Shown here piece after piece: positions 3,679 through 34,388 of a stretch of DNA of 34,388 bases (the first letter of the stretch is position 1; every line of letters begins with the position of its first letter). The notes beneath the pieces are model-generated. The model saw only the letters and a program-made list of their open reading frames with translations, did no database searches and had not been told where the DNA came from. A program made the position numbers and the translations under genes. Location of the stretch: the IMG/VR virus record IMGVR_UViG_3300043449_000283, positions 1-34,388 of that record, one strand, 5' to 3'. This stretch comes from a virus.

Positions 3679-5157
3679 ATGTATATACCACTTAAACTAC
3701 CACCAGGCATCTACAGAAACGGCACAGAGTACCAGGCAGCAGGCCGATGGTTTGATGCCAATCTGGTGCGCTGGTACGAGAACACTTTGCGGCCCATGGG
3801 TGGCTGGAGAAAACGTGCAACTGGCCAGATGACGGGTTTGTGCCGAGGCTTTATTACTTGGCGCGATAACAGTGCCACACGCTGGATTGCAGCAGGCACT
3901 CAGTCCAAGCTCTATGCCATGAACGAGGCTGGAACACTCAAAGACATTACCCCAACCGGATTTACAACTGGCTTGGCCAGTGCATTGTCAACGACAGGCT
4001 ATGGATACAGTGGTTATGGCACATTGGCCTATGGCACTGCAAGGCCAGACAATGGCGCCAGCCAGCCGGCCACCACATGGTCCATGGACACATGGGGTGA
4101 GTATTTGGTGGCTTGCTCCAATGCAGATGGCAAGCTCTATGAGTGGCAATTGGGTTTCACCACACCCACACTAGCAGCAGCCATTACCAATGCACCGACA
4201 AGCAATAAGGCTTTACTTGTCACTGCCGAGCGCATTTTGATGGCGCTTGGTGCTGGTGGAAATCCCAGAAAAGTGCAGTGGTGCGACCAAGAGAACAATA
4301 CTCTTTGGACACCGGCAGGCGACAACTTGGCAGGCGACTATGAACTGGCCACGCCTGGCACATTGATCGCTGGCAAGCGGGTCAAGGGTGTCAATCTTCT
4401 GTTTACAGATGTGGATGTCCACACGGCCCAGTATGTTGGCGCTCCATTTGTCTATGGCTTTGAGAAGGCCGGCAGCGGCTGCGGTCTCATTTCAGCCCAA
4501 GCGGTGGCGGCCATTGATACTGCTGCCATTTGGATGAGCAAGGCAGGCTTTTGGATGTATGACGGCTATGTCAAGCCACTGCCAAGTGACGTGTCTGACT
4601 ATGTCTTTGGCAATATCAACTTTAACCAGGCATCCAAGGTTTACTCTGTCCACAATAGCAAGTTTGGTGAGATTTGGTGGTATTACCCAAGCAGTGCAAG
4701 CAATGAAAATGACAGCTATGTCACTTTCAACTACAGAGAAAACCACTGGAACATAGGCACATTGGCCAGAACTGCTGGCACTGATGCCGGAGTGTTTACC
4801 AACCCAATGGCCGTGTCCACTGATGGTTACATCTACGAGCATGAGGTCGGCTTTGCCTATGACAGCGCCAGCGTCTATGCCGAGTCTGGACCAGTCCAAT
4901 TGGGCAATGGCGACAACATCATGTCAATTCGCCAAGTTGTGCCAGATGAGCAGACACTGGGTGAGGCGGTGGTCTCATTCAAAACCCGTAATTACCCAAC
5001 TGGCACACAATCGACATTTGGGCCATTTACGGCAGCCAACCCCACAGATGTCCGGTTTGCAGCGCGTCAGGTCAATGTCAAGGTGACTGGTGCGGTATTG
5101 GCTGACTGGCGCATTGGGATAATGAGGCTTGATGCCGTGCCAAGTGGAAAGCGATGA
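3679..5157 (+). CDS. Tail protein, nozzle/stabilisation-protein-like (beta-propeller type)
   Basis: 492 residues. The N-terminus (LKLPPGIYRNGTEYQAAGRW and NLVRWYENTLRPMGGWRK) and C-terminus (RIGIMRLDAVPSGKR) match a widespread podophage protein usually described as a tail tubular/nozzle or P22 gp10-like DNA stabilisation protein. The middle has repeated Trp/Gly beta segments (WGEYLVACSNADGKLYEW, GFWMYDGYVK), consistent with propeller blades. In the virion this would close the short tail. The family link is from memory, and confidence in the exact role is moderate. It overlaps the next start by ATGA. Confidence 0.72.
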   Translation: MYIPLKLPPGIYRNGTEYQAAGRWFDANLVRWYENTLRPMGGWRKRATGQMTGLCRGFITWRDNSATRWIAAGTQSKLYAMNEAGTLKDITPTGFTTGLASALSTTGYGYSGYGTLAYGTARPDNGASQPATTWSMDTWGEYLVACSNADGKLYEWQLGFTTPTLAAAITNAPTSNKALLVTAERILMALGAGGNPRKVQWCDQENNTLWTPAGDNLAGDYELATPGTLIAGKRVKGVNLLFTDVDVHTAQYVGAPFVYGFEKAGSGCGLISAQAVAAIDTAAIWMSKAGFWMYDGYVKPLPSDVSDYVFGNINFNQASKVYSVHNSKFGEIWWYYPSSASNENDSYVTFNYRENHWNIGTLARTAGTDAGVFTNPMAVSTDGYIYEHEVGFAYDSASVYAESGPVQLGNGDNIMSIRQVVPDEQTLGEAVVSFKTRNYPTGTQSTFGPFTAANPTDVRFAARQVNVKVTGAVLADWRIGIMRLDAVPSGKR

Positions 5158-29339: not shown

Positions 29340-29673
29340 ATGGCTATTGTTAGCAACACATTCCTGACTTACTCCGCAAAGGGTATTCGGGAAGATTTAA
29401 GCAATGTGATCACAAACATTGCGCCCGAAGAAACCCCTTACATGAGCAACATTGGCCGTGAGAACGTGTCCAACAGCTTATATGAGTGGCAGACCGATAC
29501 ATTGGCCGCAGCTGCTGCCAATGCCCAGTTAGAGGGTGATGACGTTGGTACGTTTGACTCTGTGACTGCTACTGTGCGTTTGCAAAACTACGCACAGATT
29601 TCACGCAAGACAATCATCTTGTCAGCTACTGAAGAAGTGGTGAACAAGGCTGGTCGTCGCAGCGAATTGGCGT
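29340..29673 (+). CDS. Major capsid protein, exon 1
   Basis: GAGGAAATT precedes the ATG. Exon 1 codes 111 residues plus the first base of codon 112: NTFLTYSAKGIREDLSNVIT, IAPEETPYMSNIG and LQNYAQISRKTIILSATEEV, which match DUF5309-type major capsid proteins. Without splicing the frame runs into the intron and stops at 29685-29687 after 115 residues. The predicted 5' splice point follows T29673. Joining to A29994 gives codon TAC and the continuous reading SELAYQIAKRGAEMKRDQE across the junction, which suits the family. Spliced total 320 residues. Confidence 0.88.
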
Positions 29674-29993
29674 TAACTTTGCATTGATAAGCGCCCGTAT
29701 TCGGTAACGAATATTGAAAAACTAGGTGAATTGCTGGAAACCCTTTAGAGCCTGATACACCACAACATAGCCCGAAAGAGCAAGTGTGATGGTCCAAAAA
29801 GAATCAGGATTAGGCAATCAGCAGCCAAGCACCGCATAAGGTGAAGGTTCAACGACTAGGGAGTAATCCCGTAGGACCAAGTGGTCCGAAGTGCCTAGCC
29901 CCAGAGATGGGTGAAGATATAGTCTGATCTTGTATGAGAGTACAAGCCTCGAAAGAGGGTCAGGAAAGTAACGAGTCCTGGCAAACAAAAATG
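29674..29993 (+). ncRNA. Group I self-splicing intron in the capsid gene
   Basis: Core elements in order: P AATTGCTGGAAACCC (29729-29743), Q AATCAGCAGCCAAGC (29816-29830), R GTTCAACGACTAG (29847-29859), S AAGATATAGTCT (29924-29935). P4 pairs GCTG of P with CAGC of Q, a covarying form of the usual GCGG/CCGC. P7 pairs GACTA of R with TAGTC of S. P1 is exon GGCGT with intron GCGCC (29691-29695), giving the required U-G at the splice site; the intron ends in G29993. Extra hairpins between R and S (e.g. GGACCA/TGGTCC) suggest subgroup IA; 3' hairpins include one with a GAAA loop. 320 nt, no endonuclease frame. Confidence 0.95.
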
Positions 29994-30670: not shown

Positions 30671-30988
30671 ATGATTCACAAAAGACTACTCAGCGAAAAC
30701 AGAGATCAAGGCATCAAGCGCTACTGGCATGAAAACCCAGAAACTGGCGATGTGACGATCCAAACAGAACAAGATGTCACAGCGGTGATTGAGGCCAACA
30801 AGGCCATCTATAACGCTGTGGATGAGAAAGCCAACTGGACTGGTGAGTGGCACTTGGTCGCATCCATCCCCGAATCCCTTTATTACAAGATGAAGGCCGA
30901 GGGCAAAATCGATGACCAAGAATATATGAAGCGTTGGCTCAACGACTCCGACAACCAATTTTTTAGAACTAGACCTGGGAAAGTATGA
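30671..30988 (+). CDS. Conserved head-region protein
   Basis: 105 residues. It contains KRYWHENPETGDVTIQTEQD and a helix with NAVDEKANWTGEWHLVASIP, then YYKMKAEGKIDDQEYMKRWL and NDSDNQFFRTRPGKV. This pattern is familiar between capsid and adaptor genes of podophages, where it is unnamed. The ATG directly follows the terminator's T run, with no ribosome site, so it may be read from readthrough transcripts or by unusual initiation. ATGA overlap with the next gene. Confidence 0.7.
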   Translation: MIHKRLLSENRDQGIKRYWHENPETGDVTIQTEQDVTAVIEANKAIYNAVDEKANWTGEWHLVASIPESLYYKMKAEGKIDDQEYMKRWLNDSDNQFFRTRPGKV

Positions 30989-31647
30989 GCAATTACATTG
31001 CAGTTTGCACCCCTGCCCGTGACCAAGTCCACACCAACTATTGCTATTGCATGGTTAACCTTGTGGCTTATCACACACTCAACACCGAAGACGCTATCAG
31101 TCTGAAATTGATGCAAGGCACGATCATCCAAAACCAAAGGGCTGACCTTTGTTTGGATGCCATGAAAGAGGGATGCACCCATATCCTTTTCATTGACAGC
31201 GATATGACCTTTCCACAGGATATGGTGGAAAGACTCTTAAAGCACGACAAAGAGATTGTGGCGGCCAACTGTGCCAAGCGCAGAATGCCGACTGGCCCAA
31301 CTGCCCAGAACTATGATGAGAACGGCAAACGAATTCCTGTCTACACCATGCCAGATTCCACTGGATTGGAAGAGGTGGGAAGCATTGGAACGGGCATAAT
31401 GCTGATCAAGCGAGAGGTGTTTGAGGGTATGTCTGAGCCATGGTTTGATATGCCATGGCAGACCACCAGAGGCTACATGGGTGAAGATGTGTTCTTTTGT
31501 AAGAAAGCTCAAGAGCTAGGCTACAAGGTTTACATCGACCACGATGTCTCTCAAGAGATTGGCCACATTGGCTCTTTTGAGTTTGGCCACCCTCACACTT
31601 GGGTTGTGAAAGAAGAGATGGACAAAGAGGCGAAAAATGGCACTTAG
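30985..31647 (+). CDS. Glycosyltransferase (GT-A fold), third copy
   Basis: 220 residues. THILFIDSDMTFPQDMVERL carries a D-x-D metal motif; VAANCAKRRMP, GSIGTGIMLIKREVFEG and GYMGEDVFFCKKAQELGYKV (the acidic E-D acceptor-side motif) follow GT2-like enzymes of phages. HDVSQEIGHIG ends the fold. It lies between the capsid-region protein and the adaptor, so co-expression with virion genes is likely. Substrate unknown. Confidence 0.8.
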   Translation: MSNYIAVCTPARDQVHTNYCYCMVNLVAYHTLNTEDAISLKLMQGTIIQNQRADLCLDAMKEGCTHILFIDSDMTFPQDMVERLLKHDKEIVAANCAKRRMPTGPTAQNYDENGKRIPVYTMPDSTGLEEVGSIGTGIMLIKREVFEGMSEPWFDMPWQTTRGYMGEDVFFCKKAQELGYKVYIDHDVSQEIGHIGSFEFGHPHTWVVKEEMDKEAKNGT

Positions 31648-32260
31648 CACCTATGCAGAACTGAAGACATCCATTGGTGACTGGCTCAACCGGTCGGACC
31701 TGACTTCTGTCATTCCTGACTTTATCTCTCTGGCCGAGGCGCAAGTGGAACGTACACTGCGCACCAGGCAGATGATTGTCAGGGCCAATGCGTCTTTTGA
31801 TGCGCAATATGGCGCAGTGCCTGCTGACTTTTTAGAGACCAAATCCCTCAAGCTCACAAGCACAAACCCCCAGACACCATTGGAGTTTTTGAGCATTGAT
31901 GCCTTGGATAATAAGGCTTCAGAATACACCGGCAGTGGCAAGCCAAGATTCTTTGGCATTGTTGGTGGCCAATTCCGAATTGTCCCAACACCAGACGCAA
32001 CGTACACCACCGAGTTGACCTATTACGCCAAGTTGTCAAAGTTATCAACTAGCAACACTACAAATTGGCTTTTGACATCAAACCCCGACATTTATCTGTA
32101 TGGTGCGCTATTGCAGGCTGCACCATATCTGCAAGATGATGCGAGAATCCCAACATGGGCAACGCTGTATGAGCGAGCCTTGAACGATTCACAAACTGCC
32201 GATGATCGCAGTGCATCTTCTGGTGGTGCATTGCTTACCCGTGCAAAGACTTTTGGATAA
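31637..32260 (+). CDS. Head-to-tail adaptor protein
   Basis: 207 residues. Opening LSTYAELKTSIGDWLNRSDL and IPDFISLAEAQVERTLRTRQ, then a mixed strand region (FRIVPTPDATYTTELTYYAK) and YLYGALLQAAPYLQDDARIP with a last helix (WATLYERALNDSQTADDR). This is the usual make-up of adaptor or tail-tubular-A type proteins that form the ring under the portal. 11-nt overlap with the glycosyltransferase gene. Confidence 0.82.
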   Translation: MALSTYAELKTSIGDWLNRSDLTSVIPDFISLAEAQVERTLRTRQMIVRANASFDAQYGAVPADFLETKSLKLTSTNPQTPLEFLSIDALDNKASEYTGSGKPRFFGIVGGQFRIVPTPDATYTTELTYYAKLSKLSTSNTTNWLLTSNPDIYLYGALLQAAPYLQDDARIPTWATLYERALNDSQTADDRSASSGGALLTRAKTFG

Positions 32261-32268
32261 GGACTGAT

Positions 32269-32667
32269 ATGTCATCTTTTACCGACTACACCGAAAACCT
32301 AGTTTTAACCTGGCTGCTGACCACAGGCTCGGCCACACGCCCCACGGCTTGGTATGTTGGCCTCTTCACGGCTGCACCCAGTGACACTGGTGGCGGCACT
32401 GAAGTGTCTGGCAGCGCCTATGCGCGAGTTGTGACCGGCACGATCACTGTCTCTGGCACAAGCCCCACAAACGCAACAAACGCAGCGGCCATCGAGTTTG
32501 CAGCTGCCAGCGGTGGAAACTGGGGATCAATTGGCTGGGCCGGCATCTTTGACGCATCTACTGGTGGCAATCTATTAGCCTGGGCAGCGCTGAGTACAGC
32601 ACGCACCATCAATGATGGCGATGTGCTGCGCATTCCAGCTGGCGACCTTGATGTCACATTGACATGA
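32269..32667 (+). CDS. Small tail/fibre-associated beta protein
   Basis: 132 residues. SFTDYTENLVLTWLLTTGSA, PTAWYVGLFTAAPSDTGGGT, SAYARV and WAGIFDASTGGNLLAWAALS then IPAGDLDVTLT match a widespread phage protein close to tail fibre genes. Entirely beta by eye. AAGGA precedes the ATG by about nine bases. Probably part of the tail tip or capsid surface; no enzymatic residues seen. Confidence 0.8.
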   Translation: MSSFTDYTENLVLTWLLTTGSATRPTAWYVGLFTAAPSDTGGGTEVSGSAYARVVTGTITVSGTSPTNATNAAAIEFAAASGGNWGSIGWAGIFDASTGGNLLAWAALSTARTINDGDVLRIPAGDLDVTLT

Positions 32668-32668
32668 C

Positions 32669-33430
32669 ATGGCAGCTTACGGCTCTGGCCCATACGGACA
32701 AGGGAAGTATTCCTATGGCGTAAGCCTTGGGGCGGTTACTTTCGCGGCCACCAGCACGGCTGCAATCAATGGTCAACGCATCTGCAAAGGTGCGTTTTCT
32801 GTTTCAGCTTCTAGCACAGAGACAGTCGCGGCCAATGTCGTCAAGACGGCATCATTCTCGGTTTCAGCGTCTAGCAGCGCATCAGCTGCTGCGCAACGGG
32901 TGGCCAATGCCTCGGCCACGGCCACAAGCGCCAGCACCATGTCAATCAGCGCTTTGCGCTTTACAGTGGCAGCAGCAACATTTGCAGCAAGCTCTAGCGC
33001 CAGTCTGGCAGCCACCAGAGTGGCCATTGGGGCATTCACATCAGTAGATGAAAGCGCCATGTCTGTGGCGGCTGTCAGAGTCCCACTGATTCAGATTCTG
33101 ATTGAAGACTTTGCCGTGATGACTGTCGGCACTAGCGTGATCGTTAGCCAGGCGGTGACGATTACGGCTGAATCTGGCATGAGCGTCAACGCGACCAGAC
33201 GACAAAGCAGTGCAATTGATTTCACTTGCCAGTCATCCATGACGATTGCTGGCAATCTAAAATGGGTGGCAGAGTCTGACACGGCAGAAACTTGGAATGA
33301 AATCTCTGACAATGCAGAGACTTGGACACCGATCACAGACACATCAGAAACATGGGATGCAATTGCTGACAGCAGTGAAACTTGGTCATCAATTGCGGAT
33401 AATAGCGAAACTTGGCAAATAGCCGCATAG
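32669..33430 (+). CDS. Repeat protein: nine 20-residue and five 10-residue repeats
   Basis: 253 residues dividing exactly: a 21-residue leader (GSGPYGQGKYSYG), nine 20-residue units (22-201, e.g. AVTFAATSTAAINGQRICKG), two residues, then five decapeptides (204-253) of form D-x-(A/S)-E-T-W-x-x-I-x that end at the stop codon. The 20-mer has alternating small/polar and hydrophobic residues with a conserved SxSxx(M/A)SxxAxR core, as in stacked beta structures. A fibre, spike or surface decoration is likely from repeats and position. Not recognised as a known family. Confidence 0.78.
   Translation: MAAYGSGPYGQGKYSYGVSLGAVTFAATSTAAINGQRICKGAFSVSASSTETVAANVVKTASFSVSASSSASAAAQRVANASATATSASTMSISALRFTVAAATFAASSSASLAATRVAIGAFTSVDESAMSVAAVRVPLIQILIEDFAVMTVGTSVIVSQAVTITAESGMSVNATRRQSSAIDFTCQSSMTIAGNLKWVAESDTAETWNEISDNAETWTPITDTSETWDAIADSSETWSSIADNSETWQIAA
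33278..33427 (+). repeat. Five tandem 30-bp repeats coding a Trp decapeptide
   Basis: Five in-frame 30-bp units, each coding D-x-(A/S)-E-T-W-x-x-I-x, fill the last 150 bp before the TAG at 33428-33430. Units share (A/G)AAACTTGG- or GAGACTTGG-like cores but differ at other positions, so they are diverged rather than fresh copies. Unit number could vary among relatives. Confidence 0.85.
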
Positions 33431-33439
33431 GGGTAAAAA

Positions 33440-34388
33440 ATGGCAGATACAACTACCAGCAATTTGTTGCTGACAAAACCAGAAGTCGGTGCATCCACAG
33501 ATACATGGGGTACTAAGATCAATACTGATCTGGACACCATTGACGCATTGTTTGATGCTGGCCCATTGCTCAAGGTCACAAAGGGTGGCACGGGTGTTGG
33601 CACAAGCACTGGCTCTGGCAACAATGTGTTGTCAACAAGCCCAACTCTGGTAACTCCTATTCTTGGCACGCCAACCTCTGCAACATTGACAAATGCAACA
33701 GGCTTGCCACTAAGCACAGGCGTAACAGGAAACCTGCCAGTTACAAACTTAAACTCAGGAACATCTGCTAGTGCTTCAACATTCTGGCGTGGTGATGGAA
33801 CATGGGCGACTGCTGGTGCTACTCCTGCTGGTTCAAACACTCAAGTTCAATACAACAATGCAGGTGCATTTGGCGGTATTACTGGTGCTACTACTAACGG
33901 GACAGCGTTAACTCTTGTTGCCCCTGTTCTTGGCACACCCGCAAGTGCTACTTTAACAAATGCCACAGGTCTGCCAATTGCAACTGGTGTCTCAGGTTTA
34001 GGCACTGGTGTTGCCACTGCTTTAGCAGTTAATGTTGGGTCTGCTGGCGCACCAGTAGTTAATGGCGGGGCATTAGGAACTCCATCTAGCGGTACTGTAA
34101 CAAACTTAACAGGTACAGCAAGTATTAACATTAACGGGACTGTTGGTGCTACTACAGCAACCACTGGTGCTTTTACTAGTATAACAAGTACAACCGCAAC
34201 TGCATCGGGTGTTGTTTTAGATACAAGTACAGCGGGTAAGGCAAACATTGCATTAAAAAGTGTTGGAACACAAAAAGGAATAATTGGACTTTCGGGTGCA
34301 ATATTAGGTACAACCGCAACAGACCTTGCTCTGTTTGCAGAAACTGGTGGCGCAATTAAGTTGTATGCCAATGGCGTAACAACAAACT
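33440..34388 (+). CDS. Tail fibre protein, N-terminal part (runs off the window)
   Basis: 316 codons from ATG 33440 (AGGGGTAAAAA before it), open to the right edge. The N-terminus [11 protein letters not shown]-type (here [20 protein letters not shown], then [12 protein letters not shown]) is the usual start of phage fibres with a KGGTG segment after it. Repeats with the core [15 protein letters not shown] occur twice and a shorter [14 protein letters not shown] once. FWRGDGTWA and [14 protein letters not shown] are further standard fibre motifs. The receptor-binding end and any chaperone are missing. Codons become A/T-richer beyond about 33850. Confidence 0.85.

Follow-up and report, generated by a model that had tools for sequence, protein, structure and literature searches.

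A tryptophan-ladder repeat protein of a short-tailed phage as a possible dock for the tail fibre

In the closest described system, that of the Kuravirus SU10, the tail fibre (gp16) is held by a dock loop of the nozzle protein gp17. Trp839, Trp847 and Trp857 of this loop form a quasi-threefold star; each dock Trp touches Ile24 of one fibre protomer, and the fibre residues Tyr23-Ile24-Tyr25 clamp the segment preceding each Trp (PMC9509320). The loop reads ERGPIW-SDFQEITW-DDPSIKELVW, each Trp being preceded by Ile, Thr or Val. Among the GP4/Bcep22-type phages, gp80, a repeat-like protein and fibre parts follow the adaptor region (JC1 gp53-gp56; BcepIL02 gp55-gp58). In the Zobellviridae, MEP402 (gp62/gp61) and CRP-4 (gp54) have, after gp80, a protein ending in three Trp, and then a fibre gene.

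The locus described here shares its arrangement with both of the latter groups. It lies in a window, the whole stretch of DNA that was analysed, which is an entire IMG/VR virus record of 34,388 bases from a freshwater phage. The structural genes of the window encode a portal (PF23899), a scaffold, a major capsid protein (PF17236), an adaptor (PF24175) and gp80 (PF23140), and the order in the tail cluster is adaptor, fibre-I (gp80), repeat gene, tail fibre. On these profile matches the cluster is that of an SU10/GP4-type short-tailed podophage, the adaptors of SU10 and the window phage belonging to one Pfam family and the two phages sharing the same tail type. One base separates the gp80 stop from the start of the repeat gene, and nine bases separate the stop of the latter from the start of the fibre gene. 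The features needed below are as follows.

3679..5157, plus strand: candidate nozzle protein, 492 aa, the name being provisional (phrog_3287 virion structural protein, E 2.9e-84)
31637..32260, plus strand: tail adaptor (PF24175 SU10_adaptor, E 1.1e-39)
32269..32667, plus strand: fibre-I protein of the GP4 gp80 family (PF23140, E 4.9e-39; PDB 8jou chain a, E 1.1e-9)
32669..33430, stop included, plus strand: repeat protein gene, ATG start, 253 aa (P0001)
32669..32719, plus strand: N-terminal Gly/Tyr peptide, residues 1-17, a putative attachment end (11 of 17 positions invariant in 48 sequences)
32729..33268, plus strand: nine 20-residue units, residues 21-200, a putative beta-solenoid rod
33263..33415, plus strand: Trp ladder, Trp 199 to 249 with spacing 10, a putative fibre dock
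33413..33427, plus strand: C-terminal WQIAA end, invariant or nearly so across 53 close relatives
33440..34388, plus strand: tail fibre gene, cut by the record end; residues 1-38 are of anchor type A (14-residue motif)

Two minus-strand ORFs that overlap the repeat gene (33091-33840 and 32773-33060) are regarded as its mirror frames.

A preliminary description of this DNA had reported an exact 20-residue period over nine units, changing to a period of 10 over five Trp-containing decapeptides that end precisely at the stop. The first of these observations was confirmed: self-comparison of residues 18-199 gave maxima at lag 20 (z 8.8) and lag 40. The change of period also stood (residues 199-253, maximum at lag 10, z 10.5), with the amendment that unit 9 already contains the first ladder Trp, at its position 19, such that the two arrays overlap by two residues in a common register. 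The array does not end at the stop; five more residues (WQIAA) intervene after the fifth decapeptide. For the whole protein, the values were z = 11.8 at lag 20 and z = 8.1 at lag 10, and in each of the three tests the top lag value was reached by 0 of 5000 shuffles. The ladder comprises six Trp, at positions 199, 209, 219, 229, 239 and 249, and its five spacings of 10 were obtained in 0 of 200,000 shuffles of residues 199-253.

The 20-residue units have large hydrophobic residues at positions 3, 5, 11, 13 and 18 and small residues at positions 1, 2 and 15; of the 48 x 9 units, 92% have Ser at position 9, unit 7 of the window protein (residues 141-160) lacking the Ser that the other units hold constant. 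The family consensus of the ladder decapeptide is T-[AP]-[IV]-S-D-[TN]-S-E-T-W. Within the window protein the units have diverged (mean inter-unit identity 26%, best 60%), and the repeat is seen at the protein level only; since Tandem Repeats Finder reported no tandem array in the DNA of the gene, a recent expansion at the DNA level was ruled out. In comparisons between homologues, identity is 51% for a unit and its own counterpart and 25% for a unit and a different one. This twofold difference, coupled with the lack of a DNA array, argues that the repeat array is, as judged from sequence, an old and fixed architecture.

Relatives were collected from IMG/VR, where tblastn confirmed 186 stretches with one set of patterns and 240 with another, while two more distant queries yielded 87 and 119. 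At most 80 were kept from each set: 80 of the 186, 80 of the 240, 79 distinct ones of the 87 and 80 of the 119, together with all 3 of a further set. Contigs were often repeated between the sets of 186 and 240, and the length-variation and next-gene counts given below include such repeats, whereas the ladder counts refer to 209 unique proteins. The expectation that the repeats would be kept in homologues was borne out: they are conserved in hundreds of IMG/VR loci. All of 48 diverse members with 35-91% identity have Ser at residues 29, 49, 69, 89, 109 and 129, and at least 90% of them have it at residues 169 and 189; dN/dS values of 0.15-0.29 between the window protein and 12 homologues indicate purifying selection. 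The window family keeps its nine 20-mers constant and varies in the ladder, giving proteins of 253, 233 or 223 aa. A second family has a different N-terminal domain in place of the Gly/Tyr peptide and lengths of 196, 216, 276 and 295-296 aa, in steps of about 20, 60 or 80. The repeat and ladder module is common to both families (hhalign probability 99.2, E 1.4e-19, 212 columns), 20-mers pairing with 20-mers and decapeptides with decapeptides. Ladders of six Trp were found in 185 of the 209 unique proteins, of four in 20 and of three in four, with fewer in none, and 992 of 993 spacings are exactly 10. Of 1202 residues immediately preceding a ladder Trp, 56% are Thr and 16% Ser; Glu accounts for 52% at position -2. 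The WQIAA end differs in other types of ladder.

As the preliminary description had supposed, the protein lies outside any recognised family: the window protein matched no family in Pfam-A, PHROGs (phrog_19041 of the JC1 protein included) or NCBIfam, and no PDB chain by sequence. A family without known function, phrog_31951, partially matched 25 of the 48 relatives at E<=1 (best 1.9e-4). In public phage records, ladder proteins are misnamed ribonuclease E, serine-rich adhesin or E3 ubiquitin-protein ligase HERC6 (L083 2642-4168; L089 16423-17199; L090 13531-14247; L144 7389-8219), probably through chance similarity. Among the open-licence PMC papers listed in the literature searches, none has a title or opening abstract describing such repeat-ladder proteins; the JBD30 and phiYeO3-12 papers, in the parts available, are unrelated to them.

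The genes next to the ladder differ between the two families. At loci closely related to that of the window, the next ORF encodes a fibre in 72 of 77 cases. The first 38 residues of these fibres are nearly constant (median 92% identity to those of the window fibre), whereas the last 120 are divergent, being BLAST-similar in only 433 of 2278 pairs. In the other five loci (L016, L035, L045, L046 and L074) an HNH-like ORF lies between the repeat and fibre genes, a placement that would suit a homing element directed at this junction. In the second family, the repeat gene lies between gp80 and a nozzle-like gene, away from the fibre, the nozzle-like gene being next in 66 of 81 loci (repeated contigs included). 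One named phage of this arrangement, MW202462, has a ladder gene followed by a nozzle-like gene, and its sole A- or B-anchored fibre, encoded elsewhere, is of anchor type B. From this followed a prediction for metagenomic contigs of the second type, and of the 15 such contigs of at least 30 kb among L150-L228, all 15 carry exactly one anchor B and none carries anchor A; the anchor B pattern had been written after its sighting in three named phage regions. Conversely, 15 window-type contigs of at least 30 kb (of at least 18) each carry exactly one anchor A and no anchor B. The anchor A half of this result was already expected from gene adjacency, and the anchor B half is what tests the prediction.

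Of 17 regions from named phages, all 10 with a ladder have one A or B fibre, as do two of the seven without (Fisher p 0.0034, uncorrected for descent), MJing1 being counted as a ladder despite its degenerate Trp spacings of 10 and 22. These regions, most of which were covered only around the tail genes, were chosen from adaptor, gp80 or repeat-protein matches and not sampled from all 177 adaptor-bearing records, and the co-segregation of ladder and anchor may have its basis in few lineages or ancestral events. Pelagibacter phage HTVC106P (L088 9299-11170) and Microcystis phage Mvi-Yong1342-1 (L087 8612) have an anchor-B fibre and no ladder in the region fetched; in both, a nozzle-like gene comes straight after the adaptor. 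Anchor B, for which the comparison covered 14 of the 15 fetched pieces (all but L325), contains Ile24-x-Glu26-Gly27, with the same residue numbers as in SU10 gp16, and anchor A lacks the Ile-x-Glu-Gly motif. Profile comparison with SU10 gp16 was not significant for either (anchor B, E 0.51; anchor A, E 0.79). Where the ladder ends in W-x-x-AA, the residue before KPEVG is Val in 1 of 117 cases, and with other ends in 8 of 24, a difference that lineage alone could explain.

Given the SU10 precedent, the Trp decapeptides would best be read as a fibre dock. We put at about even chances the proposal that the repeat protein is the tail part on which the receptor-binding fibre is mounted, as a rod whose Trp ladder docks the fibre trimer. 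Its conserved N-terminal peptide would attach it to the tail hub, presumably at the adaptor or gp80, and the nine 20-residue units would form a single-chain beta-solenoid rod, a fold predicted at low confidence. At the C-terminus, where the period becomes 10, an extended strand would offer one Trp site three times to three identical fibre chains, each site consisting of a Trp and the short segment preceding it and being received by the trimeric fibre N-terminus, as in the SU10 nozzle loop. The partner would be the fibre of the next-door gene (anchor A) or, with the second family, a fibre encoded elsewhere (anchor B). That one chain must repeat its site three times for a homotrimer would account for the short C-terminal period. 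A simple trimer rule fails to explain ladders of four and six, or the absence of ladders of five. The repeats, their conservation, the modular changes of length, the order of the genes and the co-segregation of ladder and anchor types are observations; docking, location in the virion and the number of trimers per ladder are our inference.

The likeness to SU10 is that one chain presents at least three Trp about 8-10 residues apart (8 and 10 in SU10; six Trp with spacing 10 in the window), the decapeptide supplying both the spacing and the short pre-Trp segment that an SU10-like star would need. The differences concern where the Trp are placed. In SU10 they lie within a loop of the nozzle beta-propeller, whereas in the window they form the C-terminus of a separate 20-residue-repeat protein, the nozzle candidate being a different ORF (3679-5157) of about half the size of SU10 gp17; ladders have three, four or six Trp with a spacing of exactly 10, compared with three Trp in SU10. 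The ladder on a stand-alone arm thus appears to be the known device of SU10 in a new setting. The other two groups are less close: JC1 gp54 and BcepIL02 gp56 (phrog_19041) lack a Trp ladder, their sequences show no similarity to that of the window protein at a detectable level, and tblastn with JC1 gp54 in the phage collection matched only eight Burkholderia phage records. The three proteins of MEP402 and CRP-4 (MEP402, L142 3256-4071 and 4074-4379; CRP-4, L143 2447-3208) end in exactly three Trp, set in another motif at intervals of 13-15, and the N-terminus of the fibre is of a third kind, neither anchor A nor anchor B.

The reading that competes best, though we regard it as unlikely, is that a beta-solenoid or homotrimeric shaft makes up the entire protein, which holds no other fibre, with the decapeptides as half-rungs and the Trp stacked. 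The preliminary description had likewise envisaged a beta-solenoid or stacked-sheet fibre in which the Trp form a ladder, and had named monomer structure prediction and a profile repeat search among its checks. AlphaFold was run twice, on alignments of 53 and 48 sequences, and gave all-beta models that place two strands in every 20 residues, strictly in register (e.g. 38-45, 50-55, 58-65 and 70-75), in agreement with the solenoid; their mean pLDDT values of 55.5 and 51.5, respectively, are low, the more diverse alignment not having raised confidence. Foldseek found no match in the PDB at E<=0.001; against BFVD, each of two runs gave four matches at this threshold, all to viral proteins without described function. 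When Foldseek candidates were aligned with VIA, beta-helix proteins came first (Z up to 13.6 and 14.0 for the two models), although a high VIA Z for repeat models may reflect only a common arrangement. The profile search gave as its best match the passenger of the Hap autotransporter, a weak one (E 0.015); NDUFS4 chains (E>=0.088) were taken as chance. The beta-helix passengers Hap (3syj) and HxuA (4i84; VIA Z 12.6 and 13.8 against the two models) resemble the window protein in that their rungs are some 20 residues long and contain alternating hydrophobics in pairs, and in the Hap alignment a Ser precedes the second hydrophobic pair; given the profile E value and the Foldseek result, this likeness is one of arrangement only. 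The unit itself follows the pattern of a solenoid rung in its constant length of 20 and the in/out alternation of its hydrophobics, and the 20-residue units are, on these models, probably a single-chain beta-solenoid.

These findings would favour a plain shaft, as would the lack of an adjacent fibre gene in most second-type loci. Against it, in addition to the low pLDDT, residues 196-253 contain no strand in either model, and the type of ladder co-segregates with the fibre anchor even when the genes lie apart. A stacked Trp ladder within a fibre is the less supported part of the preliminary description; in the solved SU10 precedent the Trp form a star gripping a trimeric fibre and not a stack.

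Less probable again is that the protein aids the folding or trimerisation of the neighbouring fibre and is then not kept in the virion. It adjoins the fibre gene, and virion proteomics, another of the checks named in the preliminary description, gave no support for a structural part: two possible counterparts, phiM5_18 and JC1 gp54, are not reported in virion mass spectrometry in the portions of the sources consulted. Unlike its neighbours 17 and 19, phiM5_18 is recorded without the note "detected in phage particle proteome"; for JC1, Table 6 of PMC9144972 lists gp53, gp55 and gp56 and omits gp54. This absence is weak but real evidence against docking, weak because phiM5_18 yields only two tryptic peptides of 7-30 residues and because JC1 gp54, a counterpart by position only, has no ladder and no homology found to the window protein. 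Its homologue BcepIL02 gp56 is, conversely, annotated as virion-associated. A role confined to assembly is also at odds with the position of the second-type gene, which is flanked by gp80 and the nozzle-like gene and lies apart from that of the fibre, and with the strictly modular changes of length, which suit a structural part.

Exposed aromatic repeats are common in carbohydrate binding, and the Trp decapeptides might bind directly to glycans of the host or to other surfaces; the C-terminal part is slow to change, whereas the adjoining fibre tips vary strongly, and we consider such binding quite improbable. Least credible is a low-complexity spacer without defined structure, which the low pLDDT and a composition of 122 Ala, Ser and Thr among 253 residues would allow, whereas Ser invariant every 20 residues and alternating hydrophobics across 35-91% identity, the low dN/dS and the exact spacing of the Trp speak against it.

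The fibre dock, if real, would explain how such phages swap fibre tips on a constant mount. A basic problem of phage tail assembly is the binding of a threefold fibre by a single chain that itself has no such symmetry, and it is the socket that determines the range of exchangeable fibres. The dock reading predicts a minimum of three Trp and that the ladder, not the hub, selects the type of fibre anchor. More tentatively, and at well under even chances, the ladder proteins, which are common in freshwater viromes and mostly unnamed or misnamed, could be an entire class of uncatalogued phage arms with a tandem Trp code that resolves the mismatch between one chain and a trimer. Each 10-residue repeat would serve one fibre protomer, such that six would hold two fibres and three or four would hold one. 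As arm type tracks anchor type while fibre tips vary, the ladder would then be a standard socket for fibre exchange in abundant freshwater podophages.

A search of genome contigs with the family patterns gave no match, and hence no host or prophage was found. The window begins with the end of a small ORF (3-191), followed by lysis and structural genes, and its other end falls inside the fibre gene (33440-34388); the record may therefore be a nearly complete, circularly permuted genome cut within that gene. A Group I intron (RF00028, 80.5 bits; 29664-29946), whose DNA has similar sequences in many unrelated phages, interrupts the major capsid gene, of which ORF 29340-29687 would carry exon 1 and ORF 30020-30622 matches SU10_MCP from profile position 116. 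Directly before the adaptor lies a glycosyltransferase-like gene (30985-31647; Anp1 PF03452, E 2.7e-9), and annotated glycosyltransferase genes occupy the same place in MW202711 and MW202496.
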